From a virus, in the IMG/VR virus record IMGVR_UViG_3300043411_002903, positions 1-47,233 of that record: a stretch of 47,233 nt of DNA; one strand, 5' to 3'. Every line of letters begins with the position of its first letter. Within the stretch, counting starts at the first letter, position 1. Under the pieces are notes generated by a model. It worked only from the letters and a program-made list of their open reading frames with translations, searched no databases and was not told where the DNA came from. The translations under genes and the position numbers were made by a program. Shown here piece by piece: positions 6,542 through 47,233 of the stretch.

Positions 6542-9403
6542 ATGACCAAATCAGCAAACCCAAAAGATGAAGTAAAAAATTTATTTAATCAAGTTCGTAA
6601 TAGTTTTTTGGATTATGATCCGGCGCACTTTATTCAAAATAACCTAACACTAGATGGGGATAGTTTCAGCATTCTAGGAAATGGCTGGAAGTTTATGGCT
6701 GATGTGTATAGATACATTGCACTTCAGGCATCTAGAAAAAATGGCAAACCTGTTGTTATCAAGAAGGGAAGACAGGTTGGTGCAACAATGATGGCTGGTG
6801 CATTAGATTTATATTTCACAAACAGTGGATTATTTGCGAAACCTCCAATTAAAGTGGCGCACTTCTTTCCATCTTTAGGTCTTAGAAATAGATTTTCACA
6901 AGAAAAATTAGAAAATTTAATTAGAGGTGCTAAAAATGATTTTATTAATGTTAATAAATTAACAGATGGCAACGTAGCTGATAATTTATCAACTAAGCAA
7001 TTCAAAACAGGAACTTTATGGATAGAAAGTATTGGGACTGATGCTGATCGTGTAAGAGGTATGACTATTGATGTTGCCTTTTTCGACGAATGCTTTGTTG
7101 GCAAACAAAATGTAGAAGTTGAATCAGGTAAAATGAGTCTGTCAAAAATTTATAAAATGAAATCTAAAAATAAAGATTTACCAAAAGTAATGTCTTTTAA
7201 TGAAAAAAATGAAAATTTTGAATATAAAAAGATATTAAATGTTTGGAAAAAAGAAAAAAAGGAGCTGCTTGAGATAAAGCTTGGTCAAAATAAAATAAAA
7301 TGTACGCAAAATCATAGGTTTTTGACAAGCGAAGGATGGAAGGCTGCTAAAGATTTGCACATTGGTGACTTAATTAAAAGCAAACATGATTATGGAAAGA
7401 GCATTAAAGCTTTAAATGAAGATCAACTTCAAATTATATTGGGATCTTTTCTTGGTGATGGAAATATAAGAAGAGAAGGGCAGCATAGATACAGATTAAG
7501 AATGACTCATGGCTTGGACCAAAGAGAATATTGTGAATGGAAGGCATCCATGTTAGATGCAAAAGTTTATGATAAAAAACCAAGTGGTTATTCGAATAAA
7601 GAATCTGTTTTTATGTCATCAACATATTTTGGTTTAAAAAAGGAATTCCCTAAAGTTAAAACTGTCTGCCCGCAATGGGTTTTGGATGAATTAGATCTTA
7701 GGGGTGTAGCAATATGGATTATGGATGATGGCTCATCCAAATTTAAAAATAATAAATTTCAAGGATTAAATATATCTACAGATTCTTTTGACGAAGATAG
7801 TCAGAAAAGGTTTGTTGATTATTTTAAAAAATATGATATTAAGTGTGAATATAGATTCTCAAATAGAAGTGGTGATAAATTTAAAAAATCAAGTTATCCG
7901 TCATTACACTTTAACCAAGAAAATGGCTCTAAACTTTTGGATTTGATTAAGCCATATGTACACAATAATATTGGTTATAAAATTCCTAATTTTTCAAAAA
8001 ATGAATGTAATTACAACTGGAATAAATTATTTAAAAAATATACATATAATGTTGTGGATAAGATTTCCAGCGTAAAAAAGAAAGAATATGTTTATGATAT
8101 AGAGGTAGAAGATAATCATAATTTTATAGTATGTTCTTCAGGACCAAGGTTGGGTGGTCCAATAGCTCACAACTGCCAGGATATGGTTGGGTTAGCAATA
8201 AACAATGCAACAAAAACATTAACCGCGTCTAAATATGGCCAATTAGGTTCTGGTGTACAGGTATATTTTGGAACCCCTAAAGAAAAAGGAACTTGGTTTG
8301 AGACAACATGGGAAATGTCTGATCAAAGATATTATCATTTGGGATGTAAAAATTGCAAAAACACATTTCCATTTTACCAACCTAATCATCCTGGTTGGAA
8401 GGATATTTGGATATCAGGATATGATATTAAATGTCCGTTGTGTGGTACTATTCAACATAAGGTTGATGCCATAGAACATGGTAAATGGGTCCCATCCAAA
8501 AACACAGACGACTGTAAGTATATAGGATTCCACATTAATCAGTTTTATATACCAAATTTGACACGAGAAGTTATCAATGATTTAATGCCAGAAAATAATC
8601 CAAATCAATCAGAAAGGGCTTGGAACAACGAAGTCGTTGGTGAATTTTATGCTGGCGTAGGAATGCCTTTGACAAGATCTCATATTGAGATATATTGTAA
8701 AGACGAAAATAGAGCATTTTCTAGAAAAATAGAATCAAGGGATAGAAAGACTTATCTTGGGGCTGACTGGGGAGATAAAGCTGAGCAAGATAGTAGAGGC
8801 CAATCATTTTCCTGTGCTGTAATTTTATCTGATGCAGGAAATGGAACTTTATTAATTGAATTTGCACATATTTTAAAAGAAAGAAGTTTTAGTTATAAAA
8901 AAGCAACTATACATGAATTGTACAAAAGATTTGGCGTACGACAGGGGGTTGCTGACTTTTTCTTTGGACAAGATGTTGTTAGAGACTTACAATCTATTTA
9001 TGGAGAAAGATTTTTAGGCTCTCAAGGTAGTGGAGCATTATTAAATGCTATAAAATATCGAGAAGATGAATTAATGATTACTTACAATAAGGATTTGTTG
9101 ATCGAAGAGCTTTTTGATAAAATGAAAAAAGGGAAGATACGATTTCCTTGGAAAAGTTATGAAAATATAGAATGGTTAATTAATCATTGCACTTCTATGG
9201 GAACTGCTCTCAGAGAAAAAAGTGGGCAACAGGTAAAGACTTATGTTAAAGGGACAACACCTAATGATGGTTTAATGGCACTAATGTATGCTTATATGGC
9301 TTGGAAATTTGATACAACAAATAAATTCACAATAAAGCCAGGAAAACCAAACGAATCTGGTATACTAAAATCTACATTAGCTTTTGCACCAAGGTTAAAA
9401 TAA
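6542..9403 (+). CDS. terminase large subunit (TerL), intein-containing
   Basis: The precursor has 953 residues; the spliced product would have 592. This is the DNA-packaging motor ATPase-nuclease that docks on the portal. The ATPase domain shows a Walker A-like KKGRQVGAT (74-82) and Walker B TIDVAFFDE (175-183). An intein occupies residues 184-544. The extein resumes as CQDMVGLAIN and contains two CxxC pairs (C602/C605 and C631/C634) suggesting a zinc-binding insert, as in GpA-like terminases. The nuclease (RNase H-like) domain shows GADWG (D742), VADFFFG (D805) and NDGLMALMYA (D909). AAGG lies just upstream of the ATG, and the portal gene follows at 12 bases. Reading frames of intein and extein are continuous and both halves are intact. 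Confidence 0.95.
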   Translation: MTKSANPKDEVKNLFNQVRNSFLDYDPAHFIQNNLTLDGDSFSILGNGWKFMADVYRYIALQASRKNGKPVVIKKGRQVGATMMAGALDLYFTNSGLFAKPPIKVAHFFPSLGLRNRFSQEKLENLIRGAKNDFINVNKLTDGNVADNLSTKQFKTGTLWIESIGTDADRVRGMTIDVAFFDECFVGKQNVEVESGKMSLSKIYKMKSKNKDLPKVMSFNEKNENFEYKKILNVWKKEKKELLEIKLGQNKIKCTQNHRFLTSEGWKAAKDLHIGDLIKSKHDYGKSIKALNEDQLQIILGSFLGDGNIRREGQHRYRLRMTHGLDQREYCEWKASMLDAKVYDKKPSGYSNKESVFMSSTYFGLKKEFPKVKTVCPQWVLDELDLRGVAIWIMDDGSSKFKNNKFQGLNISTDSFDEDSQKRFVDYFKKYDIKCEYRFSNRSGDKFKKSSYPSLHFNQENGSKLLDLIKPYVHNNIGYKIPNFSKNECNYNWNKLFKKYTYNVVDKISSVKKKEYVYDIEVEDNHNFIVCSSGPRLGGPIAHNCQDMVGLAINNATKTLTASKYGQLGSGVQVYFGTPKEKGTWFETTWEMSDQRYYHLGCKNCKNTFPFYQPNHPGWKDIWISGYDIKCPLCGTIQHKVDAIEHGKWVPSKNTDDCKYIGFHINQFYIPNLTREVINDLMPENNPNQSERAWNNEVVGEFYAGVGMPLTRSHIEIYCKDENRAFSRKIESRDRKTYLGADWGDKAEQDSRGQSFSCAVILSDAGNGTLLIEFAHILKERSFSYKKATIHELYKRFGVRQGVADFFFGQDVVRDLQSIYGERFLGSQGSGALLNAIKYREDELMITYNKDLLIEELFDKMKKGKIRFPWKSYENIEWLINHCTSMGTALREKSGQQVKTYVKGTTPNDGLMALMYAYMAWKFDTTNKFTIKPGKPNESGILKSTLAFAPRLK
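7091..8173 (+). mobile_element. TerL intein with LAGLIDADG homing endonuclease
   Basis: A 361-residue in-frame insertion (precursor residues 184-544) that separates Walker B DE from QDM. It begins with Cys184, has the splicing block B motif TQNHRF (T255, H258), a block F-like YVYDIEVEDNHNF and ends AHN followed by Cys, the canonical His-Asn/Cys junction. The endonuclease part carries two LAGLIDADG-type helices, IILGSFLGDGNI (298-309) and VAIWIMDDGS (389-398). All catalytic splicing residues are present, so it looks active. Removal restores a continuous terminase with Cys at the +1 position. Confidence 0.93.
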
Positions 9404-9415
9404 TGAGGTATTTAA

Positions 9416-12319
9416 ATGAGTAGAAGAATTTCCAGGGGTAATTCACCTCAACCGCCAATTTCAAGAAACGGATTTCAAAAGTTATCAGAATTTCGTCGTG
9501 CCGAAATTCATAATATTGAAAATCAGAAACAGGATAAAATTGAAAACGGAAATGCGACAGCTTCAGTGGTCCACAGCTCACATTATAGAGATGTAATGGT
9601 TAAGAAAGCTTCAAGTTCCCAAACTGTTTTGCCAACAACCAAAGGCATTTCTGATATGTTAGGGCCGGAAGTTTATTCTCCATTATTTATTTTAGCTAAT
9701 TTAAACCTACCAAGAGATAGAGTCGCAATGAATGCTTGGAACCGAGTATTTTATGACACACATCCAGTGGTAAGAAATGCAATCAATCTTCATGCTAGTT
9801 ATCCAATTAGTAAAATAAACATTTCTCATCCAGATAAGAAGGTTCAGGAATTTTTTCTTGAAATGGCTGAAAAAATAGATTTATATTCAGTTGTTTATGG
9901 TGCTGCACTTGAATTTTGGAAACTAGGAGAATGTTTTCCTTATGCAGAATTAGATCGGGAAACAAATTCTTGGAAAAAAATAACAATATTAAATCCAGAT
10001 TATATACATGTTAAAAAATCAGCAATTGGAGATCATACAATTATTTCTTTACGTCCTGACGCAGGATTACAAAGATTGGTTAATTCTAATTCACAATCAG
10101 ACATTGCTTTGAAAAAAAGATTGCCCAAACATATAGTTGATGCTGTTAAAAAAGGTGAATCCATTCCATTAGATGGAATAAATATTTCTCATTTAAAATT
10201 ATTAAGTTCACCATATGATGTTAGAGGAACTTCTGTCATCGTTTCAGTCTATAAAGATCTAATGCACTATGACAAATTGCGTGAATGTTTTGATAAGGAT
10301 ACTGAGGTTTTAACCAGCAATGGTTTTAAAAAATATACAGATATTTTTAATTTAGATAATCAAAGCATTAAAAATGATGTGATGATAGCATCATATAATG
10401 ATATCAGTGATAAAATTGAATATTTAAAACCAACCAATTCAGTTTTGAAAGATTTCACAGGGGAAATGATTCATTTTAATGGTAAGAAAATTGATTGTAT
10501 GGTTACACCTAATCATAGAGTTTATTCTTCAAAAAAGACCAGTGAAGGTTGGCAGCCATATGAAATAAGTTTAGCAAAAGATATCGGAAATGGTTCCTTT
10601 TACAAATTCAAAACATCAGCAACATTTGATAATCTTAACGATATTGACGAAGTAATTGTTGGTGATAAAAAAGTTCCAGTTAAAACATATTTAAAATTTG
10701 CAGGCTATTTAGTTAGCGAAGGCTGTATATATCAAAAAATAAGAAATGATAAACGCAAAAATGGATACCAATACTTTGATAATAAAATTATCACTTCGCA
10801 ATTACCAACATCGTTGTGTTTTGAAGATATGAAAAATGTTTACACGGAAATTTCGGACATAATGGGTTATAAATTATCTGAAAGTTTTAGAGTTCAAGAT
10901 TCTGGATTTTCAAAATCATCACCAAAAGAAATTTGGTCTGCATCAATATTTGGGAAAGAATTGGTAGATCATTGTATAGAAAATTTTGGAATTGATGGCA
11001 AAACAGATTCTTTTAACAAGAGAATTCCTAGATGGGTTCTAAATTTAAAACCAGAGTTGCAAAGAATTATGTTATCTGCATTAGTATCCGGTGATGGATC
11101 TATTTTTAGAAAGAAAACAACAACATCGTTTAGGTACAATACTGTATCTAAACAATTGGCAGATGATGTTTTTGAAATGGTATATAAATGTGGATTCACT
11201 CCAACCTTAGGGACTTATAAGAGAGCTGGGAGAGATATTAACGAGTATGTTATTTCATGGTCATATAGTGGCATAGGAGTCGAGCCATTAATTTATAATA
11301 ATTTTAAATATAATGCAGCAAAAATAAATAAAGTAAATTACAATGATAAAGTTTGGTGTGTAGAAGTGCCTACTGGATTAATTGTAACAAGAAGAAATGG
11401 TAAAATAGTAATTCAAGGTCAGTGTAAGTTTGCTCAAGCTGATAATATGGTTAATCCATTAACCCTAGTTAAACTAGGTGGCTCTAACGATTATCGTCCA
11501 ACACAAAGTGATTTGGATGCGATGAAATCAGTCCTTGAAGAGGCTCAATATGATAAGGATTTTAAAATTGTAACACACGATGGTGTTACAATTGAGCGGG
11601 TAGGTCATAGTGGACAAATTCTTGATATTTCGCAAGACTTAGAATTTATAATGAACAATTTATATATCGGATTAATGGTTCCTAAATCAATCATAGAACA
11701 AGACTCAGTTACATATGCAAGCTCATCCATAGGATTAGAAGTTTTAAGACAGAGATACGATATATTTAGAAACATGATGAAAAAATGGCTTGAGCAAAAA
11801 ATATTTGCACCAATATCACAATTACAAGGGTTCTTTAATTATAAAGATGGCCAAAAAATATTACAAGTTCCTACCGTAGATTTTAATCATATGAATTTAT
11901 ATGATATGAGTGACTATATTCAAGGTGTGAGCAATTTCGTTGCTAACGAACAAGTTTCATTGCAGACATTATATAGAAGCCTTGGATTGTCATATGAAGA
12001 AGAAAAGAGAAGATTAAGAGAGGAGGCCATAGACAAAGTTAAAAAGACGAAAGAACTTGAGGCTCTAAATGTGATGAGATTAAGAGAACTTGAGAATCTA
12101 GACCCTAATGGTGTAATACCAGAGCCACCAGCAAGTGCGGATGGCATGGGCGGACTTGGACCTGATATGGATTCAAGCGGCTTGCCTGGATTAGAATTAC
12201 CAGGCATGCCATCCGGCGGACCAGGAGAGGGTTTGGAGGGAATGGGAGGCCCTGACATTAGTATGCCACCACCTTCACCTTCCCCTTCTGGCGGAGGAGA
12301 GCCTAAATCCCCTGTCTAA
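9416..12319 (+). CDS. portal protein, intein-containing
   Basis: The precursor has 967 residues; the spliced protein would have 588. The portal forms the ring at one capsid vertex through which DNA passes. Extein motifs typical of portals include MNAWNRVFYDTHPVVRNAI, LNPDYIHVKK, and after the intein CKFAQADNMVNPLTLVKLGG, followed by a long helical region. The C-terminal ~85 residues are Gly/Pro/Ser/Met-rich low-complexity sequence (from about DPNGVIPEPPAS to the end), probably a flexible tail. It follows TerL with a GAGG ribosome-binding site, the usual terminase-portal order. An intein occupies residues 291-669. Confidence 0.92.
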   Translation: MSRRISRGNSPQPPISRNGFQKLSEFRRAEIHNIENQKQDKIENGNATASVVHSSHYRDVMVKKASSSQTVLPTTKGISDMLGPEVYSPLFILANLNLPRDRVAMNAWNRVFYDTHPVVRNAINLHASYPISKINISHPDKKVQEFFLEMAEKIDLYSVVYGAALEFWKLGECFPYAELDRETNSWKKITILNPDYIHVKKSAIGDHTIISLRPDAGLQRLVNSNSQSDIALKKRLPKHIVDAVKKGESIPLDGINISHLKLLSSPYDVRGTSVIVSVYKDLMHYDKLRECFDKDTEVLTSNGFKKYTDIFNLDNQSIKNDVMIASYNDISDKIEYLKPTNSVLKDFTGEMIHFNGKKIDCMVTPNHRVYSSKKTSEGWQPYEISLAKDIGNGSFYKFKTSATFDNLNDIDEVIVGDKKVPVKTYLKFAGYLVSEGCIYQKIRNDKRKNGYQYFDNKIITSQLPTSLCFEDMKNVYTEISDIMGYKLSESFRVQDSGFSKSSPKEIWSASIFGKELVDHCIENFGIDGKTDSFNKRIPRWVLNLKPELQRIMLSALVSGDGSIFRKKTTTSFRYNTVSKQLADDVFEMVYKCGFTPTLGTYKRAGRDINEYVISWSYSGIGVEPLIYNNFKYNAAKINKVNYNDKVWCVEVPTGLIVTRRNGKIVIQGQCKFAQADNMVNPLTLVKLGGSNDYRPTQSDLDAMKSVLEEAQYDKDFKIVTHDGVTIERVGHSGQILDISQDLEFIMNNLYIGLMVPKSIIEQDSVTYASSSIGLEVLRQRYDIFRNMMKKWLEQKIFAPISQLQGFFNYKDGQKILQVPTVDFNHMNLYDMSDYIQGVSNFVANEQVSLQTLYRSLGLSYEEEKRRLREEAIDKVKKTKELEALNVMRLRELENLDPNGVIPEPPASADGMGGLGPDMDSSGLPGLELPGMPSGGPGEGLEGMGGPDISMPPPSPSPSGGGEPKSPV
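10286..11422 (+). mobile_element. portal intein with LAGLIDADG homing endonuclease
   Basis: A 379-residue in-frame insertion (precursor residues 291-669) within KLRE/CKFAQAD. It starts CFDKDTEVLTSNGFKKYTDI, a standard intein N-terminus, has block B VTPNHRVY (T364, H367), block F-like VWCVEVPTGLIV and the end RRNGKIVIQGQ followed by Cys. The last residue is Gln rather than Asn and the preceding one is Gly rather than His. Two LAGLIDADG-type motifs are seen: LKFAGYLVSEGCI (426-438) and MLSALVSGDGSI (552-563). It is clearly different in sequence from the TerL intein, so the two were acquired separately. Confidence 0.92.
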
Positions 12320-12365
12320 AATAACTGCTAATAATTTATTTTTTAGGTAGTAACGGAGGGTTCTC

Positions 12366-13075: not shown

Positions 13076-13078
13076 GTT

Positions 13079-13369
13079 ATGGATAAAAAAGCAGTAAGAG
13101 GTTTTCCTCATGATCCACATTATGTAGCTAATGAAATTAGGAATATAATACATGTTATTATAGGAAGAATGTCTTTGGAATCACAACAAAAAGCTTATCC
13201 TAATTTGAAATCAAAGTTTAAAAATTTAAATGTTGCAGAAATATCTAGTAAAAAACAACCTGGTGGTTCAGCATTGGGCGTTAGTATTAGTTTGGTGAAA
13301 AATATTTTAAATGGTAGAGATCCTTATTTTATAAAAATGGTATTGGATGAATTATCAAGGGGATTGTAA
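13079..13369 (+). CDS. hypothetical protein, 96 aa
   Basis: I do not recognise it. It is basic and compact, starting MDKKAVRGFPHDPHYVANEI. GAGG precedes the ATG at good spacing, and its TAA shares a base with the next ATG (TAATG). There is no membrane segment. Confidence 0.6.
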   Translation: MDKKAVRGFPHDPHYVANEIRNIIHVIIGRMSLESQQKAYPNLKSKFKNLNVAEISSKKQPGGSALGVSISLVKNILNGRDPYFIKMVLDELSRGL

Positions 13370-15195
13370 TGTTCAAAGATATTTTAAAAAAACAAGCTTG
13401 GCCATGGGTGGGAGAATTTGAAAAAGAAATGGGCTCTATGGAATTACAAAACGACAACTTAAATAAGGATGTTAATTCTCAAAGTAACTATGATTCCCTG
13501 GTAACTGAAAAATCTGTGGTAGATGGTCAACAATCATCCGTAACTTATGAAGATGGAATGTTGAGCCCAATAGAAGATGTCTCTTATGCCAAAGATATTA
13601 AAAATCGTCCAGAGAAAAAAGCTTTTTTGGAAATATTATCCGATGGCAATTTTTTGGCCTCCTTTAGTTGTGGGTTGGCAAAAACATTTCAGGAAAAAAC
13701 ATCAGGACTGCAGGTTTATGATACTCTAGATGAAAATGCTGGTTTGCTGTTTGAATATACAAAGCCTGAAGATGTCATTTATCATATGGGAACTGTAAAA
13801 TTCCCAATAGATATTATCTTTGTTGATGATAATAATAAAATCAAAAAAATATACAAAAACATTCAGCCTGGAACTTTAGGTACATTTGGATGTTCCAAAA
13901 CAAAATATGTATTAGAGATCTGTGGTGGTTTATCAGATCGCTTGGAAGTTGTTACAGGAAATGATGTAAGTGTTAAGTTTAAAGAAAGCATCATTCAAGA
14001 TGAAATAAATAAGATATCCAAAAATTATGGCATACAAAAAGATATTATTGTTAAAAAATCTATGTTTGGAAAAAATCAAATCCAAAATTGGAATGGTTTT
14101 CCAATTTTAAACATGGGTGATGATATAAATAAATTTGCATCAGATAGGAGCTTGATATCTGACATGGTAGTGAAATTCAAGCCCAAGCCATTAAAGTTAG
14201 CGATATTTAATTTCGATAATCTTATAGAAAAAGATCCTTATGTTAGTGTTTATTCTTGTAAAAAAATTGGAGCAGAAGATGAATTGATTCACCTTACAAC
14301 GACGGGAGCTTTGGTCAGAGCTAATTTGAATGCTTTTAAAGTGGTTCATATTTCGGATATCAATGAAGTAGAAAATGATTGTGAAGCCATTTTGCCAATC
14401 AAGAGTTTGTCAAGTTTAATGATGTCATCTTTTGATGAGTTTTCAAACATGTATTATAAAATGAAATCTAAGTCAAAAGATTATAAATTAATTATAGCAA
14501 CAAGTTTTCCTAACATTAGAGTGATTGAAAATTTATTATATAATAAAATAAAAACACATTTAGGTGAGGATATAAGTTTTGATGTAATGAAAATATCTGA
14601 TAATGCTGATTTTTACAATATAATTGATGACGCTAAAAATAAATTTAAGGTTGGAACAATAGAATTGTATGGTGATTCAACTATCTTAAAAAAAGCAGGA
14701 ATTCCAGTTTCTGATGACGTTAAACAAAAAGCAAGAAGAGTTTATAAATTATTAGATTCAGCGTCTGAAATTATAGAAACATCTTTAGAAAACATGAAAA
14801 AAAATGTATCGGAATATGAAAAAATTAAAGATGATGTTGATGCTATAAAAAGAACCAAGGGGTTGTATAATCAATCAATAAAGAGAAACACAATAATCAT
14901 TAGAGATTTTCTAATAAAAATTAGGGATGCAATTAAAATTTTAAATGAAATTAAAGATGTATCTACAACTATTGAAATAATAAATGGTATAACCAGTACA
15001 ACAAAGATAATATCTGACTCAATTGAAGGTATATTTAATTTAATTGATGAATTAGAGAATTCTGATTTTTTTATTAATTTGTCAGAGAAGGTCAAGGAAT
15101 TTGAAAAAAATGTAGAAGATGTACATTATTCAATAAAGCGCGGAATTAATTATGTTAATACAGATATTTTAGGATTAATTATTTTATCTGATTAA
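13369..15195 (+). CDS. hypothetical protein, 608 aa, C-terminal coiled coil
   Basis: I do not recognise a family. Residues about 70-450 appear globular and mixed alpha/beta (for example PIDIIFVDDNNKIKKIYKNI and LTTTGALVRANLNAFKVVHI). The last ~150 residues are long helices with heptad-like Ile/Leu spacing and many Lys/Asp/Glu. No catalytic motif was found. It lies immediately before the protease-scaffold gene and overlaps the previous stop, so a structural or internal head role is plausible but unproven. Confidence 0.65.
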   Translation: MFKDILKKQAWPWVGEFEKEMGSMELQNDNLNKDVNSQSNYDSLVTEKSVVDGQQSSVTYEDGMLSPIEDVSYAKDIKNRPEKKAFLEILSDGNFLASFSCGLAKTFQEKTSGLQVYDTLDENAGLLFEYTKPEDVIYHMGTVKFPIDIIFVDDNNKIKKIYKNIQPGTLGTFGCSKTKYVLEICGGLSDRLEVVTGNDVSVKFKESIIQDEINKISKNYGIQKDIIVKKSMFGKNQIQNWNGFPILNMGDDINKFASDRSLISDMVVKFKPKPLKLAIFNFDNLIEKDPYVSVYSCKKIGAEDELIHLTTTGALVRANLNAFKVVHISDINEVENDCEAILPIKSLSSLMMSSFDEFSNMYYKMKSKSKDYKLIIATSFPNIRVIENLLYNKIKTHLGEDISFDVMKISDNADFYNIIDDAKNKFKVGTIELYGDSTILKKAGIPVSDDVKQKARRVYKLLDSASEIIETSLENMKKNVSEYEKIKDDVDAIKRTKGLYNQSIKRNTIIIRDFLIKIRDAIKILNEIKDVSTTIEIINGITSTTKIISDSIEGIFNLIDELENSDFFINLSEKVKEFEKNVEDVHYSIKRGINYVNTDILGLIILSD

Positions 15196-15218
15196 TTTTT
15201 TACACAAAAATTACAAAC

Positions 15219-15241: not shown

Positions 15242-15261
15242 GAAAAATGAGGTTGGAATTA

Positions 15262-25105: not shown

Positions 25106-25138
25106 AAGCCTTGGTATTTTTACCAAGGCTTTTTTTTT
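25106..25138 (+). terminator. strong Rho-independent terminator after capsid gene
   Basis: A perfect 11-base stem (AAGCCTTGGTA 25106-25116 with TACCAAGGCTT 25121-25131), TTTT loop and a nine-base T tract. It is the strongest terminator of the window and follows the major capsid gene at 24 bases. Confidence 0.95.
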
Positions 25139-32818: not shown

Positions 32819-33217
32819 ATGCCAAAGTCAAAATATCCTCAAGAATTAGATACATCATTAGAAATACCTCCTGCAAGAGATAATATTCTTGAGGTTGGTT
32901 CTGATATTATCAATAGCTTGAGATCAGCAATCTTTAACATAGAAAGAACTTTGGGCATAAATCCACAGGGAGCTATTGGAAATACACTAGCAGAAAGGCT
33001 TAATCATATAATTGATGGTAACGGCAATTTACGAAGTGATGCTTTGAATTTATCAAACGTTTTAAGTGGCCCAATCATAGATAATGATGTCTCTAATGTT
33101 GCCGCCATACAAGAATCTAAGTTAAAGCTAAATTTCCCCACAATATTATTGCAAGACGAAATAACAGTACTTAATTCACAGCTTGAAGATATTCAAAATA
33201 CGTTAAATGAAGTATCT
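32819..33217 (+). repeat. duplicated 5' coding segment, copy 1
   Basis: By hand alignment these 399 bases differ from 37120-37518 at about 41 positions and contain no indel. The last 90 bases (33128-33217) are identical in both. Similarity drops sharply right after 33217. Confidence 0.9.
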
Positions 33218-37120: not shown

Positions 37121-37518
37121 TGCCAAAGTCAAAATACCCTCAAGAATTAGATACATCATTAGAAATACCTCCGGTTAGAGATAATATAACCGAGGTTGGT
37201 TCTGATATTATCAATAGTTTGAGATCAGCAATCTTTAACATTGAAAGAACTTTGGGTATAAATCCACAAGGAAGTTCAGGGAATACATTAGCAGAAAGGC
37301 TTAATCATGTAATTGATGGCAATGGTAATATTTTAGATGAAGCTTTAAATAGAGTTAATGTTTTAAGCGGCCCAATCATAGATAATGATGTCTCTAATGT
37401 TGCTGCTATACAAGAATCTAAGTTAAAACTAAATTTCCCCACAATATTATTGCAAGACGAAATAACAGTACTTAATTCACAGCTTGAAGATATTCAAAAT
37501 ACGTTAAATGAAGTATCT
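37120..37518 (+). repeat. duplicated 5' coding segment, copy 2
   Basis: Partner of 32819-33217, in direct orientation 4301 bases downstream with constant offset. The 90-base stretch 37429-37518 is identical to copy 1. Confidence 0.9.
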
Positions 37519-40500
37519 GTTAATTTGTCAATTCATTTAAACCAGAATGTTTTAAATAGTCATTCTGCAACATCAATATCTGTCTCATTAAGTGAGACAT
37601 TAGAATCTGATGTAGCCACAATCTCCTTAGAAAGTAATGATTTACAATCAGTGATTGAAGAATTATATAATTCTCATATAAATTATACAGGTCTTAATGT
37701 ATCAGATTTAAATAATTCACATAAAAGCTCGCAAATTTATTTTGATAATAGCAACATATCTGATGTGGTTGAATCTGATAGTGTTCAAGGTGCCATTGAA
37801 GATTTGGCCCAAGTAGAATCTGTTGGATTCAGAAATGCTTTAAGAAACATAACATCTAATGGAAGGATTAGGAAGGGTTATGTTTATAACGCATATGATG
37901 GACAAAGAAAAAATCATATTTTAGTTGCTGATTCTGGCGTCGTATTTGTTAGAAATCAAGGTTCTAGTGTAACAACATTTACATTCAATACTCCAGCAAC
38001 AATTCTTGGAGAAATATCTAGTTTTGATATTTTATCATTATCAGGTTCAAGCACTGAACTAGATAATACTGATTACCAAATATCTAGCGTTAATATTAAT
38101 GGAAGTGGAAACTTAGAAAGTGTTGAAGTGTTTGGTGGACCGAATGGTATTTCAGGTTCGAGTTTATTAGCTAATATAACAAAGAACCCATATGCAGTAT
38201 ATAATACGGGTGGGTTTTGTTGTGTGGCCAGACCACGTTCAAATAAAACTAATACCCCAGATATTCAGTTTCTAAATCCAGATTGCGCAACCATAATTTC
38301 ACAAGGAATAATTCCTTCTAAAATAACAACGGATAATCATAAAATAAACATAATAATTGATGATCATTCGGCGGTAACGTTAGATACATTTAATTCTTTA
38401 ACTTCCGATCAAACAATAGATGGTATTGTTCAAAAAATAAATGATCAATGTATAGATCAACACTTAAATATTATGGCTTACAAGATAAGGTCAAACAATT
38501 GTTATGAATTAGGTTTATCACATAATATACCAGGAATTGATGGAGATAATGTCAGAAGAACAATTATGGTTACAAACGGTTCTTCTAATGATGGACTTTC
38601 AATATTAGGTTTTGATAGTCAAAAAGATATTTACTTTGAAGGGATTACTGGAAATAGTCTAAGTCTAAACGGACTTATATTAAGTGAGTTTGGTTTAATA
38701 AAATCATTTACAGAAAATACTATAAGTATAGAGAATGGAACTCGAAATATTTCTTTATTATCCAGTACGTTTTCAGAGCAAGGTGTTAAGGTTGGTGATT
38801 TAGTTGTAATAAGAGGTATGTCTGATTCAACCGAAGATGGCTCTTATAGAATTGGCAGTATAAGTTTTGGAGTGGCAACACTTGATCTATCAGGTTCATT
38901 TACTAGTACATTAGGTTTAGATTCTAGAGTTTATATAGTTAGAAATTCGGCAAATATTGACGAATTAACATTTGAGGAAATTGTATCCATAAACGGAACC
39001 GTAATTTTTGATATATTTATGGATGAATCAAAGGATGTTTTTTATTCTAAAAGGCTTGAGGTCGATGGAGCTATATCTAGCTCCAACTTTTATGGTGTTA
39101 TATCTGATATCTCCAATAATTTTATTTTAAAGGATGAATCCGCAACATTATCAATTGACACATCAGGATACGCAACATTAACTGACCCAACATTATCATC
39201 AGGCTCTCCGGTTTTTATTGGAACCACCGGGTCTTTTAAAATATTTGGTTCCGATGGTTTATCTTTTTTAACATTAGATGTAAGTGCCTCAAGTCTTCCT
39301 GCTACAACACAAAGTGTGACGATATATGGTTATAATGAAGTAAGTGCAAATAATTATTTGTTGTCAAGAGGTAGTTTTGCTACATCATTAGGTAGGGTTT
39401 TAGGAACTTCAAGTGACCCCGGGGTACCATCTTTGATAGATAAACGAAATTCTGGTACTGCGGATAATAATATTATTGGAAATGCATTTGTTGAAAAATA
39501 TATTGAGGGACCCAGAAATGATTTGAGAGGTTGCGGAGTTATAAGAGGATGTGAAGTAACTAATGCGACATATACGGATGCTGGTGGAGGAAATATTTAT
39601 CAAACATTTAGTATTTCTGCAGGTATAATACTTGTTAATGGAATTAGAAGAGAGTTTTTGGGATTGGAAAACGTAAGAATTGATACAGATCAAACTTATG
39701 TTGTTGTTATGAATGATAAGGGGTGCATACAAGCATCCCCATACATTGATAATCCACTTGATCCAGGAAATTACGTATCACCTTATTTCGAAAACAATGT
39801 TGCTTACCTAGCGGAGATAACAAATAATGGCACTACGGCATCAGTTTATGATTTAAGATTATATATAAATAATATAGATTATAAAATAGCTAGTGAAATT
39901 AAAGTTTCTAACGATTTAAGATTTGGTCATTTTACAGATTTAGAAAAAGCAGTTAAGTATGCAAAAAGATTTAGCAAAATGTTTCCGGAAATGGGAAGTC
40001 CTACAATATTTATTTGTAGTGGTACTTACGAAATTGATAGTACAATTCTTATAGATTTTGATTTAAAAATAACTGGTTCTGGTCCAAATACTAATTTAAC
40101 AAAAACTGGTTCAATTGCAACTGGAACATCTTTGACTGGAGATGCTGTTGATATGAGTACAGCATTATTTATGATTGGAGGAGGAATTGACTCAAATGCG
40201 GCCGATATCGTGTCGGGGGTTGAATTGTCAAATTTCACTTATACAACCTCTAGTTTGTTAACAAATGTTGGTGTTGTAATAGCATTAACACAACCTTTGG
40301 TGAAAAGTTCAGTTGTAATTGCAAGAAGAGCCACTTATAAATTTAATAATATAAATTTTTTGGGACCATCTTCAATCGATGGTTCTGTTGCCGATCCAAA
40401 TAAAATAGGTGAATACGCATTAATGATTGGACAACAAGATTTGTCTTTAAATCCAATAAGCTCTATCACAATGGGTAATGTTGAATTTACAGGTTGTAGA

Positions 40501-40707
40501 TTAAACAGAATGGGTCTTGAAAACGGTGCAATTAAATTTACAGAATCATCATCATCATCTATAAAAGATATTGTTTGTACAAACAACATTGTAACATTTG
40601 GTTCACCTAATTTAGGATTAACAACATCAGTTGTTATTGAGTACCCTACAACACCAGCAACTAGCAACTTTATTGAGACTGGAAATAGTTTCAGAACAAC
40701 AAGTTAA
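37120..40707 (+). CDS. giant fibre/adhesin-like virion protein 2, 1195 aa, paralogue
   Basis: A tandem paralogue of the preceding gene: near-identical first ~133 residues, then weak similarity with the same domain order. The segment DLRGCGVIRGCEVTNA parallels DLRTSGVISGLEITGA in protein 1, and the beta-helix lead-in (HFTDLEKAVKYAKRFSKMF, then TIFICSGTYEIDSTI) starts at about residue 935, almost the same place as in protein 1. It lacks the C-terminal extension. The ATG overlaps the previous TAA (TAATG), so the two are co-translated. Probably two fibre or spike subunits that share an attachment site or assemble together. Confidence 0.65.
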   Translation: MPKSKYPQELDTSLEIPPVRDNITEVGSDIINSLRSAIFNIERTLGINPQGSSGNTLAERLNHVIDGNGNILDEALNRVNVLSGPIIDNDVSNVAAIQESKLKLNFPTILLQDEITVLNSQLEDIQNTLNEVSVNLSIHLNQNVLNSHSATSISVSLSETLESDVATISLESNDLQSVIEELYNSHINYTGLNVSDLNNSHKSSQIYFDNSNISDVVESDSVQGAIEDLAQVESVGFRNALRNITSNGRIRKGYVYNAYDGQRKNHILVADSGVVFVRNQGSSVTTFTFNTPATILGEISSFDILSLSGSSTELDNTDYQISSVNINGSGNLESVEVFGGPNGISGSSLLANITKNPYAVYNTGGFCCVARPRSNKTNTPDIQFLNPDCATIISQGIIPSKITTDNHKINIIIDDHSAVTLDTFNSLTSDQTIDGIVQKINDQCIDQHLNIMAYKIRSNNCYELGLSHNIPGIDGDNVRRTIMVTNGSSNDGLSILGFDSQKDIYFEGITGNSLSLNGLILSEFGLIKSFTENTISIENGTRNISLLSSTFSEQGVKVGDLVVIRGMSDSTEDGSYRIGSISFGVATLDLSGSFTSTLGLDSRVYIVRNSANIDELTFEEIVSINGTVIFDIFMDESKDVFYSKRLEVDGAISSSNFYGVISDISNNFILKDESATLSIDTSGYATLTDPTLSSGSPVFIGTTGSFKIFGSDGLSFLTLDVSASSLPATTQSVTIYGYNEVSANNYLLSRGSFATSLGRVLGTSSDPGVPSLIDKRNSGTADNNIIGNAFVEKYIEGPRNDLRGCGVIRGCEVTNATYTDAGGGNIYQTFSISAGIILVNGIRREFLGLENVRIDTDQTYVVVMNDKGCIQASPYIDNPLDPGNYVSPYFENNVAYLAEITNNGTTASVYDLRLYINNIDYKIASEIKVSNDLRFGHFTDLEKAVKYAKRFSKMFPEMGSPTIFICSGTYEIDSTILIDFDLKITGSGPNTNLTKTGSIATGTSLTGDAVDMSTALFMIGGGIDSNAADIVSGVELSNFTYTTSSLLTNVGVVIALTQPLVKSSVVIARRATYKFNNINFLGPSSIDGSVADPNKIGEYALMIGQQDLSLNPISSITMGNVEFTGCRLNRMGLENGAIKFTESSSSSIKDIVCTNNIVTFGSPNLGLTTSVVIEYPTTPATSNFIETGNSFRTTS

Positions 40708-40719
40708 TTGAGGTAAAAA

Positions 40720-41163: not shown

Positions 41164-41501
41164 TGTTTTCAATTAAATTTTATCATAAAAAAGAAAAAAG
41201 AGGTGTTGATTTTTCAAATACAATCAACACCATGGTTAACTTCATATTTAAAAAATTAAATATACCTAATTCTAGGGTTGTTTCAGATAATTCTTGTATA
41301 GAGATAATATCAGGAAAAGAAATTGTTCCAAATAACAATGAAGTTGTTGTTGAATTGTTAATAAGGAAGCATATTTTGATTAAGAATGAAGACTTTAATA
41401 ATCGAGAAAAGCTGGATGAACATATTTTCAGAATAAAACACTTTTGTAAGCAAGCAAAAGACATAGATGATTTGAAATATTTACCTATTAATATGAGGTA
41501 A
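41163..41501 (+). CDS. hypothetical protein, 112 aa
   Basis: Unrecognised, basic, mixed alpha/beta small protein. Its ATG overlaps the previous TAA (TAATG), so it is probably produced by coupled translation. It lies just before the probable sheath/tail terminator, so a tail assembly role is possible. Confidence 0.55.
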   Translation: MFSIKFYHKKEKRGVDFSNTINTMVNFIFKKLNIPNSRVVSDNSCIEIISGKEIVPNNNEVVVELLIRKHILIKNEDFNNREKLDEHIFRIKHFCKQAKDIDDLKYLPINMR

Positions 41502-41519
41502 TCATATTGGGAGATGAAT

Positions 41520-42335
41520 ATGCCCATAGATATTCAGGGATTGCCAGGAACAGGCAATAATGCTATTCACCGAACTTATTCTAATTTTTTTGCTGATAAT
41601 CACGTTATTCAAAATGTAGCTATTGTTCAGCCTAAAAATTTATTAATAGATATATTAAGGCAACATTTTAGTCTTGACAATATATTTACATATAGAGCTG
41701 ACGAATATGGATTTCCACTTACACCAAATTTGACAGGGTTAAATGTTGATGATATCTTGACAACAAAAATTTTAATAAGTGATGTTTTTAGGTATGAAGT
41801 CAAATTCTATCCAGCCATAACTGTAAAAACTTCTGGTGGAAGTTCATTACCAGTATCTTTTAACCAAGAAGGAACTATAAAATATAGAAAAGATTTGGTT
41901 GAAAATAATTATGGTGGTGTATCCACTATATTAACGCCAACACATAAAGTGTATGCCGGCGCCTGGGATATGAGTTTTGATATTTCAATTCATTCTGAAA
42001 GTCATGCGGAATTAGAAGAAATTACTGAGATAGTAATGATCTTGTTACAGTATGTTTCCTGGAATGAGCTCAGAGCTAATGGATTGTTTATAAAAACCAT
42101 GCGACTTGGTGGTGAAAATTCTGAGCCTTATGCTAATGACTATATCTTTAGTCATACACTTTCCATAGAAACAAGATCAGAGTGGAGGGTGGAGATACCT
42201 GTAGAAAACGTTGTTGAAAAAATCGTTTTTTACTTTGACGTTGATCGTCATTTTATTCCAGGACAAACAACACAGGCTGATGTACAGGCGTTAAAATATG
42301 ATGATGTTGTTGATATGGCAGAAATCGTTCTTTAA
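41520..42335 (+). CDS. probable tail/sheath terminator or tail-completion protein, 271 aa
   Basis: GGGAG at 41509-41513 serves the ATG at 41520 with six-base spacing; the ATG at 41514 is too close. The protein is alpha/beta: an N-terminal helix after RTYSNFFADNHVIQNV, FRYEVKFYPAITVKTS, then YAGAWDMSFDISIHSESHAE, LEEITEIVMILLQYVSW and a final FYFDVD strand. The paired strand/helix layout resembles small tail-completion and sheath-terminator proteins of myoviruses, and the tail sheath gene follows after one inserted endonuclease gene. This is inferred from position and secondary-structure appearance. Confidence 0.5.
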   Translation: MPIDIQGLPGTGNNAIHRTYSNFFADNHVIQNVAIVQPKNLLIDILRQHFSLDNIFTYRADEYGFPLTPNLTGLNVDDILTTKILISDVFRYEVKFYPAITVKTSGGSSLPVSFNQEGTIKYRKDLVENNYGGVSTILTPTHKVYAGAWDMSFDISIHSESHAELEEITEIVMILLQYVSWNELRANGLFIKTMRLGGENSEPYANDYIFSHTLSIETRSEWRVEIPVENVVEKIVFYFDVDRHFIPGQTTQADVQALKYDDVVDMAEIVL

Positions 42336-42352
42336 TTAATTTGGAACTTAAA

Positions 42353-43177
42353 ATGTGTATAGAGTTTTTTGGTAATCCAGATAATTTAAAAAAATCTGGT
42401 GTTTACGCAATAATAAATTTAAAAAACAACAAAAAATATATTGGTTCAACCAAGTGTTTTAAAAATAGATTGAATGAACACAATAGGATGTTAAAAGCAA
42501 AAAAACATCAAAATAAATATTTGCAAAATGCATTCACAAAAAACCAAAGCAAAGATTTTTTATTTGAAATAATAGAAATATCTGATGATTATTTAAATCT
42601 AGAACAACGTTATTTAGATAACATTTTCTCATGTACCAATATTAAAAAAAAATATTACAATATATCATGTAAAGCAATATGTCCACCAAATAATTTAGGT
42701 AAAAAATTAACAAAAGAACATAAATTAAAAATAGGAGCAGCCCAGAAAGGTGTTTTAAGTAGTAACTTTGGAAAAAAACATTCAAATGAAATTAGGCTTA
42801 AAATGAGTATTTCAAAATTAAATAAAAAACATACTATGGAGACCAAAAATAAAATTAGTACATCCAATCTTGGTAAGATTAAATCTTTAGAATCAAAAAA
42901 GAAAATAAGTGAAAGTAAAAAAGGGAAAAAATTATCAGATTGCTCAAAAAGAAATATTGGATTAGGAAAATTGGGAGTAAAACATCCTAGTTATACCCAA
43001 GATATTTGTGCTGAGAATATATTGACTGGTGAAGTTATTAAGGCACATAATAGTGTTGAATTATCAAAATTAATATCAGCATCACAGTCAGCAATTCAAA
43101 TTAGAATAAATAAAAAATCAAAAAGATATACAGAAAAAAATATTTTTGGAATATGGAGAATATTTAAATCAAAATAA
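42353..43177 (+). CDS. GIY-YIG homing endonuclease with NUMOD3/NUMOD1 repeats
   Basis: The protein has 274 residues from the ATG at 42353 (GGA at 42343-42345); TTG at 42341 is an alternative. The catalytic domain shows GVYAI (16-20), KYIGS (28-32), R39 and the metal-binding Glu in LNLEQRYLD (E84). Several NUMOD3-type DNA-binding repeats follow (GKKLTKEHKLKIG, GKKHSNEIRLKMS, GKIKSLESKKKIS, GKKLSDCSKRNIG), then a NUMOD1-like C-terminus (ENILTGEVIKAHNSVELSKL). This is the family of T4 I-TevI-type and SegA-G enzymes. It sits between the tail-completion gene and the sheath gene and is notably Lys/Asn-rich and AT-rich, typical of a mobile free-standing nuclease gene. Confidence 0.93.
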   Translation: MCIEFFGNPDNLKKSGVYAIINLKNNKKYIGSTKCFKNRLNEHNRMLKAKKHQNKYLQNAFTKNQSKDFLFEIIEISDDYLNLEQRYLDNIFSCTNIKKKYYNISCKAICPPNNLGKKLTKEHKLKIGAAQKGVLSSNFGKKHSNEIRLKMSISKLNKKHTMETKNKISTSNLGKIKSLESKKKISESKKGKKLSDCSKRNIGLGKLGVKHPSYTQDICAENILTGEVIKAHNSVELSKLISASQSAIQIRINKKSKRYTEKNIFGIWRIFKSK

Positions 43178-43357
43178 CAATGATTTTTAAAAAAATAGTA
43201 ATTAAACATTATAATTGTGAAATGTTTTAATCAAAAAAATATTGTGAATGTAATGATATGCAAAAGAAACACCTAAATATTGTAGTAGAAATCAAAATTT
43301 TGGACTTGGTTACTTCTATTAATAAACAAAATAGATTATGATAAGGAGTATTTAAAT
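43178..43357 (+). other. 180-base gene-free leader before tail sheath
   Basis: This is the longest gene-free stretch in the window. It is very AT-rich. AAACATT (43204-43210) and AATGTTT (43221-43227) form a weak 7-bp stem with a ten-base loop. AAGGAG near 43342-43347 is the ribosome-binding site of the sheath gene. I see no convincing promoter consensus. A sheath-gene promoter or the flank left by the endonuclease insertion may lie here. Confidence 0.5.
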
Positions 43358-46300
43358 ATGGCTTCAATTCCAGGTTTAAGTGGATACCAACAACCAGGCA
43401 CATTCGCAAGAGATCGAATCATATCTCGTGGCGTTTCAATCCCTGGCGGACAAAGAATTCCTTGTATTATGGGCGAAGGCTTAAGGGAAGAAACTGTTGT
43501 TGAATCAGCATTAGGTGATGGTCAAGATGGTGATTCCGGATGTAGTCCTACGGGTTCAGGATCTGGAAAATATTTTAGTCTTCAAAACTCCCCAGTTATA
43601 TCAGGCAGAACAGAAATTTACTTGAATGGTTCACAATTAAGAGGGTTCGAAGGGACTATTGACGAAAATTCATTTGATGGATTATATGATTTTAGACTCG
43701 ATCCTGAAACAGGATGCTTTGAATTACAGGGCGCCAGTATAGGGGACCAAGATGGAAAACATTATTCAGCTAGTAGTCTTAACGTTGGTAACGGATTTGT
43801 TGTTGATGGAACCTGTGGTACTGTTGACTTAATATCAGTTTATGACACAAATGCTCCAGCAGAAAGATGGACCGTGAGAGTTGTTGGGGTAATTAGAGAT
43901 TCAAATGGTGATCCAATCCCGGGCTTAACAACATTTACTGTTACAGGTTCTGTTTCTGGACAATTAAGAAATTCTAACGGACAACCTATACTATTTCATG
44001 ATTCGTATTACACAAGCAATCTTGGTTCTGTTTCAGGAAACTCGGACGCTTGTAATGATGGATTCGTAGTTGCCAGTAGTATTGATTTTGGAGATGGTAG
44101 TGCTGAAACCGTAAGTGGTGATGCCACACCATTAACAACTAGATATTTTAGTTTTTCTGGAAATTTAATTACACAAGGTCAAGCTTTAGTCGGAGATCAT
44201 CTTTGCTTAGATGGTTATGTTGGAATTGAAATTGATGATATTAATTATGATTCTGGAACAGATATCACAACATTAACATTAGTTACAGATAGTATTGCAA
44301 CAGACGTTTTAAGTGTCCCATGGGAAATTAAAGCTGTTAACTTATTTATAGATGATGAATCAGTTGCTCATGATGGAACAACAGGAGTTCCTGATACGGC
44401 AGGAAGATTTAGTAGTTCATCTTTAGGCAAAGTTTTAACTATATGTAGTGGAGATTCTCAAGGATTTTATAAAATCGATCAGGTTACCTCATCAAGAAGA
44501 GTTAGAGTAAGCTCTTTGTCTGATTCTAGTGTTGGATTTCCTATCCTAGCAGATGGAGATGGTGATGGTTTATCCGAAACAGGACTTGAGTTTCATTTAT
44601 TAGAAACAAACGGTGTTTTGATATTCGGAATCAAGGTGGGGACAATACCATTTGCTGTTGGAGATAAATTCTTTATTGACGTTAAGTCAAAAGTTTTAAA
44701 AGTAAACGATCAGCTTACAGCAAAGTATATAGCTGAATCAGATATTAATGACCCGGAACTGTTTGTTAGTGCTGCAGAATTAAATCAAAAACATGGTACA
44801 GAAAGTTTAACCAACACTTTGGCCTTAGGTGCTAGAATGTGTTTCGAAAATCAAACACCATTTGTTTTGGCAATTCAATGTAAGCCACCAATTCCAAGAA
44901 GAACTACTGTTACTTTGGTTGAAGAAGTTGATTCAAATGGTAATGGTGGATTCCAAGCTTGTGGCGGCGTAGCAGCAGATTGTGAGCCTGATGATTTAAC
45001 ATTTATTATTCCAAAGCCTTTAACCGGATTACAAAGAGCAAAACCTGACATAGATACACAGGTTAATGTTTTTGTTGTTAGAGATGGCGTAGAAACACAA
45101 ATATTTCCAAACAAGGTCGGGTTTTATAATTCTCAATTAGAAAGCCCAACAGGGCAGGGTTCTTTTATTTCCGGTTCTGACACATCATTCTCTTATACTG
45201 TAATTAATACAGATACAAAAATAACAGGAGAAGGTTTTAACGCAGAACTAACTGCAGCAGATAGCACATTTTCAACAACAGAAATAGATTTCGATAGTAC
45301 TGACGTTGGTAGAATAATAGTAATTCAAAGTTTGGAAACATCATTATCTGCAGTTTTAACTACATCCGATGATATCAGCACACATTTATTTGGAGATACA
45401 ACAACCGGCGTTGAATTAGTTATTAGCTCAATTGTTGATGACAATACTGTTGTTGTTTCTGGAAATATTACCGGATTGCCAGATATATTATCTGATGCTG
45501 TTGATGTTCAATTCTTTATAAAAGATTCAGGTGATACAACAAATGTAAGATCAGCCCTCTTATTACATAGAGATTTAGTTAATAGTGGAACTCTAAAAGT
45601 GGGCGATGGAATTAAGATATCATACATTGATGAACTAGATGCAGATTTCTTTGACACAAATTGGTTCGAGGCTTTTGAGGCATTAGAATCTGAAGATTGT
45701 CAAATGGTTGTTCCTTTACCCTTGCAAAATCGAAGCGGTATATTTAGAGCAGCCGTTCAACATGCAGAAACAATGAGCACTATAGCAATACAAAAAGAAA
45801 GAATTGCTATGTTTGGAGCTCAACAAGGAGTTACTCCAGAAGCCCTTTTAGGTTTAGAAGAAGTTGCCGTTGAAGATATAGGGGTTTTAGAAGGTATCCA
45901 GGGAGATAGTGCAGAAGAAGTCCTAGACGGAAACACTGAAGATCTGCAAAACTTCAAGTTAAGCGATAACTTCACAAGTAATCGATCAGTATACTTTTTC
46001 CCTGATCGGATTGTAAGGTCAGTTAATGGAACAAATTCATTTATAGATGGTTTTTATATGGCAGCAGCTGCGGCGGGATTTTTAGCGCAAACACAAAATG
46101 TTGCGATACCATTAACTTTCAAAACTTTATCTGGTTTCTCGATCTTAAGGGACCGAAAATTTAGACCAACAATACTAAACCAACTTGGTTCAGTCGGAGC
46201 TACTGTTGTTCAACCAGTAATTGGTGGAGGAAAGGTACTTGCTGGTAGAACTACAAGCCAGTCTGGGTTTGTTGAAGATGAAGAAATTTCAATTATATTT

Positions 46301-46567
46301 ATTAGAGACAGAGTTAAACAAACATTAAGAGCTGGGCTTCTACCGTTCGTAGGAACAGTTGAAGATGCAAATACGCAAGGTATTATAACTGCGAGAGCTG
46401 TAGGAATATTATCATCATTGGTTTCTCAAGGATTAATAACCGGATTTGAAAATGTTAGAGTTGAACGAGATAAAATTGATCCAAGACAATGGAATGTTTG
46501 GGCTAGATATCAACCAAGTTATCCAATAAATTACATATTTATCGATCTTGAGGTTGGAGTTAGATAA
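43358..46567 (+). CDS. tail sheath protein, 1069 aa
   Basis: The C-terminal ~190 residues (from about NRSVYFFPDRIVRSV) carry the conserved sheath domain pattern: FIDGFYMAAAAAGFLAQTQN, LTFKTLSGFSILRDRKFRPT, then VEDEEISIIFIRDRVKQTLR and the final YPINYIFIDLEVGVR. The N-terminus begins MASIPGLSGYQQPGTFARDR, as in many sheath proteins that start with a short beta element. Sheath subunits polymerise round the tail tube and contract at infection. The length is well above the ~650 residues of the T4 sheath; residues about 90-480 hold beta-rich insertions probably exposed on the tail surface. An AAGGAG site precedes it and a terminator follows. Confidence 0.92.
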   Translation: MASIPGLSGYQQPGTFARDRIISRGVSIPGGQRIPCIMGEGLREETVVESALGDGQDGDSGCSPTGSGSGKYFSLQNSPVISGRTEIYLNGSQLRGFEGTIDENSFDGLYDFRLDPETGCFELQGASIGDQDGKHYSASSLNVGNGFVVDGTCGTVDLISVYDTNAPAERWTVRVVGVIRDSNGDPIPGLTTFTVTGSVSGQLRNSNGQPILFHDSYYTSNLGSVSGNSDACNDGFVVASSIDFGDGSAETVSGDATPLTTRYFSFSGNLITQGQALVGDHLCLDGYVGIEIDDINYDSGTDITTLTLVTDSIATDVLSVPWEIKAVNLFIDDESVAHDGTTGVPDTAGRFSSSSLGKVLTICSGDSQGFYKIDQVTSSRRVRVSSLSDSSVGFPILADGDGDGLSETGLEFHLLETNGVLIFGIKVGTIPFAVGDKFFIDVKSKVLKVNDQLTAKYIAESDINDPELFVSAAELNQKHGTESLTNTLALGARMCFENQTPFVLAIQCKPPIPRRTTVTLVEEVDSNGNGGFQACGGVAADCEPDDLTFIIPKPLTGLQRAKPDIDTQVNVFVVRDGVETQIFPNKVGFYNSQLESPTGQGSFISGSDTSFSYTVINTDTKITGEGFNAELTAADSTFSTTEIDFDSTDVGRIIVIQSLETSLSAVLTTSDDISTHLFGDTTTGVELVISSIVDDNTVVVSGNITGLPDILSDAVDVQFFIKDSGDTTNVRSALLLHRDLVNSGTLKVGDGIKISYIDELDADFFDTNWFEAFEALESEDCQMVVPLPLQNRSGIFRAAVQHAETMSTIAIQKERIAMFGAQQGVTPEALLGLEEVAVEDIGVLEGIQGDSAEEVLDGNTEDLQNFKLSDNFTSNRSVYFFPDRIVRSVNGTNSFIDGFYMAAAAAGFLAQTQNVAIPLTFKTLSGFSILRDRKFRPTILNQLGSVGATVVQPVIGGGKVLAGRTTSQSGFVEDEEISIIFIRDRVKQTLRAGLLPFVGTVEDANTQGIITARAVGILSSLVSQGLITGFENVRVERDKIDPRQWNVWARYQPSYPINYIFIDLEVGVR

Positions 46568-46588
46568 GTAAATAAAAATGAAAATAAT

Positions 46589-46620
46589 AATGGCTCACTT
46601 AAGTGGGCCATTTTTATTTT
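46589..46620. terminator. bidirectional Rho-independent terminator
   Basis: TGGCTCACTT (46591-46600) pairs with AAGTGGGCCA (46601-46610), with one G-T pair, extended by AA/TT. T-rich sequence follows on the plus strand, and A-rich sequence before it gives a T-rich tail for the minus strand. It ends the sheath transcript and probably also the convergent minus-strand gene, whose stop lies at 46614. Confidence 0.85.
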
Positions 46621-47233
46621 ATAAATAATCTTTGTCCAGCATCATATATTTTGAATAACTTATATTCACGGGCATAGTCTCGCTCCTTAAGCTTTCTTTC
46701 ATCCATATTTGCCCTACATTTTAGTCGGTTATAAGTTTGTTTAAAATCGGTCCACTCCCAACCCAATGTTTCTTTTTCTAATTTGAAACCTTGTTTAATT
46801 AGAAATTCACCAGTTCCATATCTAAGATCTACCCAATAATGAATTGGTAACTTTGGCATATTTAACGTTACATATTTTAAAAGTTTAGAGAAGGCACCAA
46901 TTATATTGTAATTAATCTTAGAACAAAATCTTTCTATTTTTATAAACGTTTTTCCTTTTCCTAATTTATAAGACATCAATGAAACTAATTCGTTTTCACA
47001 ATAAAGCCCTATATGTTTAGCGTTTTTATATCCCTTTATGTGGTTGTTTTTCAAAAATAATTTTGCATCATTAGAATTAACATTTTTTACATTTGTTTTT
47101 CTAGCCCCTAGTTTAAATGATGTTTTGTTTAACACATTAAAGATCATAGATTTGACAATATTAAATTTATTAAATATTTCGTCGGATCTGAATTGTAAGA
47201 TTCTATTATTTTCATTAAAATAATGCTTTCTCA
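46614..47233 (-). CDS. C-terminal part of a Vsr/Hef-like homing endonuclease, cut by window end
   Basis: The reading frame has no stop between 46614 and the right edge, and the sequence upstream of the ATG at 47147 is still protein-like (RILQFRSDEIFNKFNIVKSM), so the gene continues outside the window. The visible ~205 residues match the C-terminal region of phage Vsr/Hef-like endonucleases: ARKTNVKNV, KLFLKNNHIKGYKN, IGLYCENELVSLMSY, ERFCSKINYNIIGAFSKLLKY, WVDLRYGTGEFLIKQGF and the ending KIYDAGQRLFIK. The nuclease active site would be in the missing N-terminal part. It is the only minus-strand gene, converging on the sheath gene, which suggests a mobile insertion. Confidence 0.7.
   Translation of the reverse strand, partial: RKHYFNENNRILQFRSDEIFNKFNIVKSMIFNVLNKTSFKLGARKTNVKNVNSNDAKLFLKNNHIKGYKNAKHIGLYCENELVSLMSYKLGKGKTFIKIERFCSKINYNIIGAFSKLLKYVTLNMPKLPIHYWVDLRYGTGEFLIKQGFKLEKETLGWEWTDFKQTYNRLKCRANMDERKLKERDYAREYKLFKIYDAGQRLFIK

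Follow-up and report, generated by a model that had tools for sequence, protein, structure and literature searches.

In the 47,233-nt viral record IMGVR_UViG_3300043411_002903, analyzed over its whole length and called the window here, five homing-type elements lie in or beside genes for virion proteins, which raises the question of whether such elements are aimed at virion genes. Because the major capsid protein (MCP) of the window is 51% identical to the capsid protein of Bacillus phage G and 75 to 90% identical to that of many IMG/VR contigs, some up to 335 kb long, we read the window as the probable virion-gene cluster of a jumbo myophage resembling phage G. No match to deposited phages was obtained by megablast, and an Rfam scan of the window detected no group I introns or other RNAs. 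A first-pass annotation had reported the five elements and proposed that they are directed at the most conserved virion genes; family E values and exact empty sites in relatives placed the presence of all five well beyond chance. They are very probably independent selfish homing elements that are spread over the genome in these phages and are not aimed. The basis for this conclusion is the identity of the elements, the exact empty sites, the patchy distribution, the decay stages at one site, and the unrelated nucleases found at the same junctions.

The gene for the large terminase subunit, terL (positions 6542 to 9403, + strand; phrog_675, E = 5e-56), is interrupted directly after Walker B (FFDE, then C) by a 361-amino-acid (aa) intein (7091 to 8173, +) that matched Intein_splicing (E = 9e-20) and LAGLIDADG_2 (E = 1e-18). 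Alignment with uninterrupted relatives placed the intein at codons 184 to 544, with Cys1 immediately following FFDE and its C-terminal HN preceding CQDM, and relatives' empty sites fell at the same codon, indicating a precise, in-frame insertion. The residues that identify an intein were present (C1, a block B TxxH-like CTQNH, and HN followed by C), and in the alignment both catalytic acids of the endonuclease were retained (LGDG and MDDG). The portal protein gene (9416 to 12319, +; phrog_16240, E = 1e-45) likewise contains a 379-aa LAGLIDADG_3 intein (10286 to 11422, +; E = 1e-5) whose junctions were set from relatives. It spans codons 291 to 669, begins at Cys1 and ends with GQ before CKFAQ; the junction residues C1, TPNH, and C+1 are present, the terminal Gly-Gln is atypical, and both endonuclease acids (VSEG/SGDG) are retained as read from the translation. 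This insertion is also precise and in frame, the same site being empty and the gene uninterrupted at all 12 of the 12 relative loci. The portal intein aligned end to end, at 25% identity, with inteins of mycobacteriophage nucleotidyltransferases, and a search of IMG/VR yielded no close homologues. Both inteins thus stood as first annotated, including the placement of one next to Walker B.

Relatives carried a series of alleles at the TerL site, which was occupied in about 6 of 16 lineages, the window included, and empty in about 10. It was exactly uninterrupted in L003, L004, L007, L008, and L009 and empty, by open-frame length, in seven further contigs (G003, G004, G006, G007, G011, G012, and G013). 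Inteins 46 to 50% identical to that of the window were found in L005, L006, L010, and L011, and an intact one was found in G008. In G002 (L171, 1364 to 4237), both LAGLIDADG acids were replaced (LGNG and MDKG) and the splice motifs were retained; L002 carried a 152-aa mini-intein without an endonuclease. Empty, occupied, dead, and mini alleles are what would be expected of the cycle of gain, decay, and loss of homing elements, and they make the TerL site a natural series in an uncultivated jumbo-phage group. The decay stages occurred in relatives and not in the window copy, whose endonuclease acids are intact, and the elements were patchy among relatives rather than fixed.

Two further observations concern this site. 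The intein-less TerL proteins of L003 (at approximately 3363) and L004 (at approximately 8001) have Ile in place of Cys after the insertion point, a residue that would block standard splicing. In L184, a Vsr/Hef gene (1990 to 3501, +) lies on the opposite strand between two terminase halves (403 to 1962, −, and 3531 to 4562, −), and the halves end and begin with N- and C-terminal intein parts in a split-intein "fractured gene" arrangement.

The remaining three elements are free-standing genes. The MCP gene (24060 to 25082, +; phrog_2522, E = 3e-72) is the neighbor and presumed target of a zinc-ribbon/tandem HNH gene (25203 to 26426, +; phrog_1035, E = 3.5e-40), the open reading frame (ORF) of which also opens at TTG 25191. 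Between them, a terminator-like hairpin with a T run (25107 to 25138, +) was read from the sequence and was found too in relatives without the HNH gene. The HNH product comprises zinc-ribbon units and two HNH-like cores in which D-R (DRI or DRV) replaces D-H in all aligned members. The DHDH with invariant His of EndoVII-type DHHRN enzymes such as F-CphI (PMC6083498) is missing from these cores, which resemble PacI, and the EndoVII-type assignment suggested by the PHROG name was therefore discarded. PacI was the best match by profile and third by fold (Foldseek), and Hpy99I was matched as well by both. The cores share with PacI (3ldy) a zinc ribbon and an HNH core with the motif DR...GY...N...CxxCN, and they retain D, N, and the CxYC Tyr in the sequence alignment. 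In the published description of PacI, a Tyr acts as the general base and the metal is bound by Asp and Asn (PMC4081073); the HNH product would, judging from these motifs, have PacI-like activity. Unlike PacI, it combines two cores and multiple zinc ribbons in a single chain; no methylase partner was seen, and the gene behaves genomically as a mobile gene.

The other two free-standing genes bracket the tail sheath gene (43358 to 46567, +; phrog_2839, E = 1e-12). Upstream, between a tail gene (41514 to 42335) and the sheath gene, lies a GIY-YIG/NUMOD3 gene (42341 to 43177, +; ATG at 42353) with three NUMOD3 stretches, supported by GIY-YIG (E = 5e-10), NUMOD3 (E = 2e-14), and I-TevI (E = 7e-6) matches; the catalytic motif GVYAI...KKYIGS...R...E was read from the sequence. 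No homologue of this gene was found in the 166 relative loci described below or in an IMG/VR scan for close relatives. Downstream, on the opposite strand, is the 3' part of a Vsr/Hef-type gene (46614 to 47233, −) that matched only the C-terminal third of phrog_3339 (E = 1e-24) and phrog_559 (E = 6e-23). Profile hits and, weakly, the fold (model pLDDT of 68) mark the visible C-terminal domain as GNAT-like, and it is 42 to 59% identical to Vsr-type proteins (phrog_3339 and phrog_559) of other viral contigs. Since the reading frame stays open right up to where the contig stops, the gene is truncated there, with the Vsr catalytic domain lying beyond the window, and the notion of a nuclease-less fragment was ruled out on the same ground. 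A complete 586-aa homologue, 60% identical and with a Vsr-like domain, occurs in L130 at the sheath-tube junction, on the same strand as the sheath gene, whereas the window gene is on the opposite strand. Because no tube gene was found in the last 666 bases of the window and the tube gene of relatives begins about 16 bp after the sheath gene, the window gene sits at the sheath-tube junction in inverted orientation. The tandem HNH and GIY-YIG genes accordingly stood where first annotated, and for the Vsr/Hef gene the assignment held for the part that is visible.

Gaps between neighboring window genes were surveyed in 166 relative loci, representing 115 clusters at 95% identity, and insertions of >600 bp were scored as gene sized. 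Uninterrupted sites were found in relatives at the MCP-3', tail-sheath, and sheath-tube junctions as well as in terL and the portal gene, so that the comparison with element-less relatives called for by the first-pass annotation could be made at every site. Of 34 lineages, 33 had a tail-sheath junction of about 60 bp, and 44 of 49 lineages had a sheath-tube junction of about 16 bp. Gene-sized insertions numbered 9 among 429 lineage-junction observations (three at MCP-3', one at tail-sheath, and five at sheath-tube); this corresponds to 9/94 at these three junctions and 0/335 elsewhere (P = 9e-7, a value that shared ancestry makes too small). Nearby control junctions were empty, namely, the one directly upstream of MCP (0/59), the one preceding it (0/49), and a pair among the tail genes (0/30 and 0/29). 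The occupants differed in kind. The window HNH family recurred at the MCP-3' junction in L022, L071 to L073, and L085, and G003 gave a phrog_1035 match directly downstream of MCP; L017 and L018 carried other nuclease-like genes there, and several closer relatives carried none. The tail-sheath occupant in L109 was an unrelated 467-aa gene. At the sheath-tube junction, a zinc-ribbon/HNH gene was present in L104, L108, and L111 and a Vsr gene in L130. Separately, a DNA methyltransferase-like gene (L114, 5291 to 6082) was seen at this junction, a nuclease site in relatives.

Splicing, cleavage, and homing of the five elements are what we infer from sequence. Each intein would remove itself from the host protein by splicing, and the LAGLIDADG endonuclease that it contains would cut the intein-less allele at the insertion point during co-infection, after which repair would copy the intein across. 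The three free-standing genes most likely home alike, cutting in or near the neighboring conserved gene (intronless homing). The elements occupy genes that any co-infecting relative must have. Some observations weigh against homing as described. The TerL inteins are only 42 to 55% identical among themselves, so that transfer would have to be ancient or infrequent at this depth of sampling; no signal of a co-conversion tract was detected at the 3' end of MCP; the canonical His is absent from the HNH cores; and the Vsr nuclease domain is outside the window.

We then considered whether the elements favor the most conserved virion genes as targets since a phage cannot lose them, a possibility that we regard as unlikely. 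All five elements do lie in or beside virion genes, the only junctions of the cluster with gene-sized insertions are those next to MCP and sheath, and homing endonuclease genes (HEGs) occur near terminase and capsid genes in other phages (PMC10448857). Against this stands the distribution of elements over whole genomes. Fifteen relative contigs were searched with six family models, TerL and MCP were located, and densities were compared in the seven contigs (178 to 335 kb) that hold the whole TerL-to-tube cluster, with overlapping hits merged by hand and cluster bounds taken, to an accuracy of about 1 kb, from the positions of TerL, sheath, and tube. The structural cluster contained 9 of 52 elements, where 8.3 were expected by length (two-sided P = 0.71), giving densities per 10 kb of 0.28 within the cluster and 0.29 beyond it. 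Inteins of the relatives were mostly in RNR, DNA polymerase III, topoisomerase, primase, SbcC-like, IMPDH, and SpoVR genes. The 335-kb contig G002 alone carries about eight inteins, at approximately 35, 49, 52, 68, 88, 225, 228, and 243 kb, in genes for IMPDH, primase, an SbcC-like ATPase, DNA polymerase III, TerL, SpoVR, RNR, and topoisomerase, most of these being nucleotide and replication genes. Nor do the insertion points mark unusually conserved stretches, an idea that was dropped because they lie at the 52nd (TerL) and 74th (portal) percentiles of conservation within their genes.

A general aim at virion genes, as read by the first-pass annotation, was therefore not supported. The appearance of aiming arises because the window is itself a structural cluster, in which anything inserted adjoins a virion gene; apparent virion-gene targeting can arise from contig placement. 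The presence of elements in conserved genes remains consistent with possible selection for targets found in every co-infecting relative. The load, which had been called heavy, is indeed high beside the mean of 1.3 elements per cluster in relatives (five in about 41 kb; naive Poisson P of about 0.01). Apparent richness was, however, the reason for choosing the window, and T4 has 15 homing genes of this sort (PMC2993671).

Other accounts concern the free-standing genes. That they are resident phage nucleases, such as a resolvase or a packaging HNH enzyme, placed in the late operon by chance appears highly improbable; although phrog_1035 is named endonuclease VII and Skunavirus phages have a fixed HNH gene between TerL and portal that is tied to packaging (PMC12724721), each free-standing gene of the window is absent from the same junction in most relatives, and the GIY-YIG gene was without a homologue altogether in the loci and scan given above. 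The flanking of the sheath gene on both sides by homing-type genes matches an arrangement described as an HEG-island (PMC10448857), in which the GIY-YIG and Vsr genes would mobilize the sheath gene between phages as cargo. We consider this quite unlikely here, since the sheath gene is at best 71% identical in nucleotides to relatives, compared with 74 to 77% for TerL, portal, and MCP. Recent cargo transfer was not seen, and the sheath gene as recently shared cargo was set aside for this lack of raised identity. Independent, selfish homing elements remain the preferred explanation.

Every component of this locus, as well as clustering near essential genes, has already been described, and the elements are real and ordinary in kind. 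Mycobacteriophages have TerL inteins, one of them at Walker B (TerL1-e), and portal (PORT) inteins, and two of their terminase inteins were shown to splice and cut (PMC5050341). The window inteins resemble these in bearing endonucleases and in being patchy across relatives, and differ in that the window TerL is of the GpA/phrog_675 type with the site directly after FFDE and in that the portal intein ends in Gly-Gln. With the seg, mob, and hef genes of T4-like phages (PMC2993671), the window shares intergenic GIY-YIG, HNH, and Hef-type genes that are uneven among close relatives; here, however, the phage group is another, the positions are beside MCP and sheath, and the HNH enzyme is PacI-like. 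HEG clusters and HEG-islands consist of HEGs close to terminase, capsid, and tail genes, with unrelated classes substituting for one another at the same position (PMC10448857). The window and its relatives share both the placement near essential genes and the swapping of unrelated classes, but the bracketed sheath gene of the window is without raised identity.

One point that may be new, although it concerns few loci, is a zinc-ribbon arm that occurs with differing catalytic domains at the sheath-tube junction. This N-terminal arm is common to the HNH-type genes of L104 (4246 to 5190), L108 (3224 to 4132), and L111 (9120 to 10064) and the Vsr-type gene of L130 (9105 to 10862), and the L130 and L104 proteins share it at E = 3e-20. 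Within 15 large contigs it was found only at the sheath-tube junction, and an IMG/VR scan for it returned just three known loci. In Skunavirus phages, it is the DNA-binding domain that ties HNH lineage to the place of insertion (PMC12724721). We tentatively propose that in this jumbo-phage group the 3' junctions of MCP and sheath might be standing homing docks at which the arm carries the target address and the catalytic domains are swapped (HNH in L104, L108, and L111 and Vsr-GNAT in L130), an idea that falls short of being probable. Junctions with mutually replacing unrelated nucleases make the address-fixing part of a free-standing homing enzyme testable.

Several other features of the window were observed. 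One ORF (2931 to 4556) encodes a poly(A) polymerase/tRNA nucleotidyltransferase head domain followed by a stretch that, by eye, is like an M15-type peptidase. A DUF192 domain (E = 3.6e-20) lies within a 608-aa protein (13369 to 15195) encoded in the virion cluster. Finally, two adjacent large genes (32819 to 37120 and 37120 to 40707) have near-identical starts (MPKSKYPQELDTSLEIPP...) and look like a tandem duplication.

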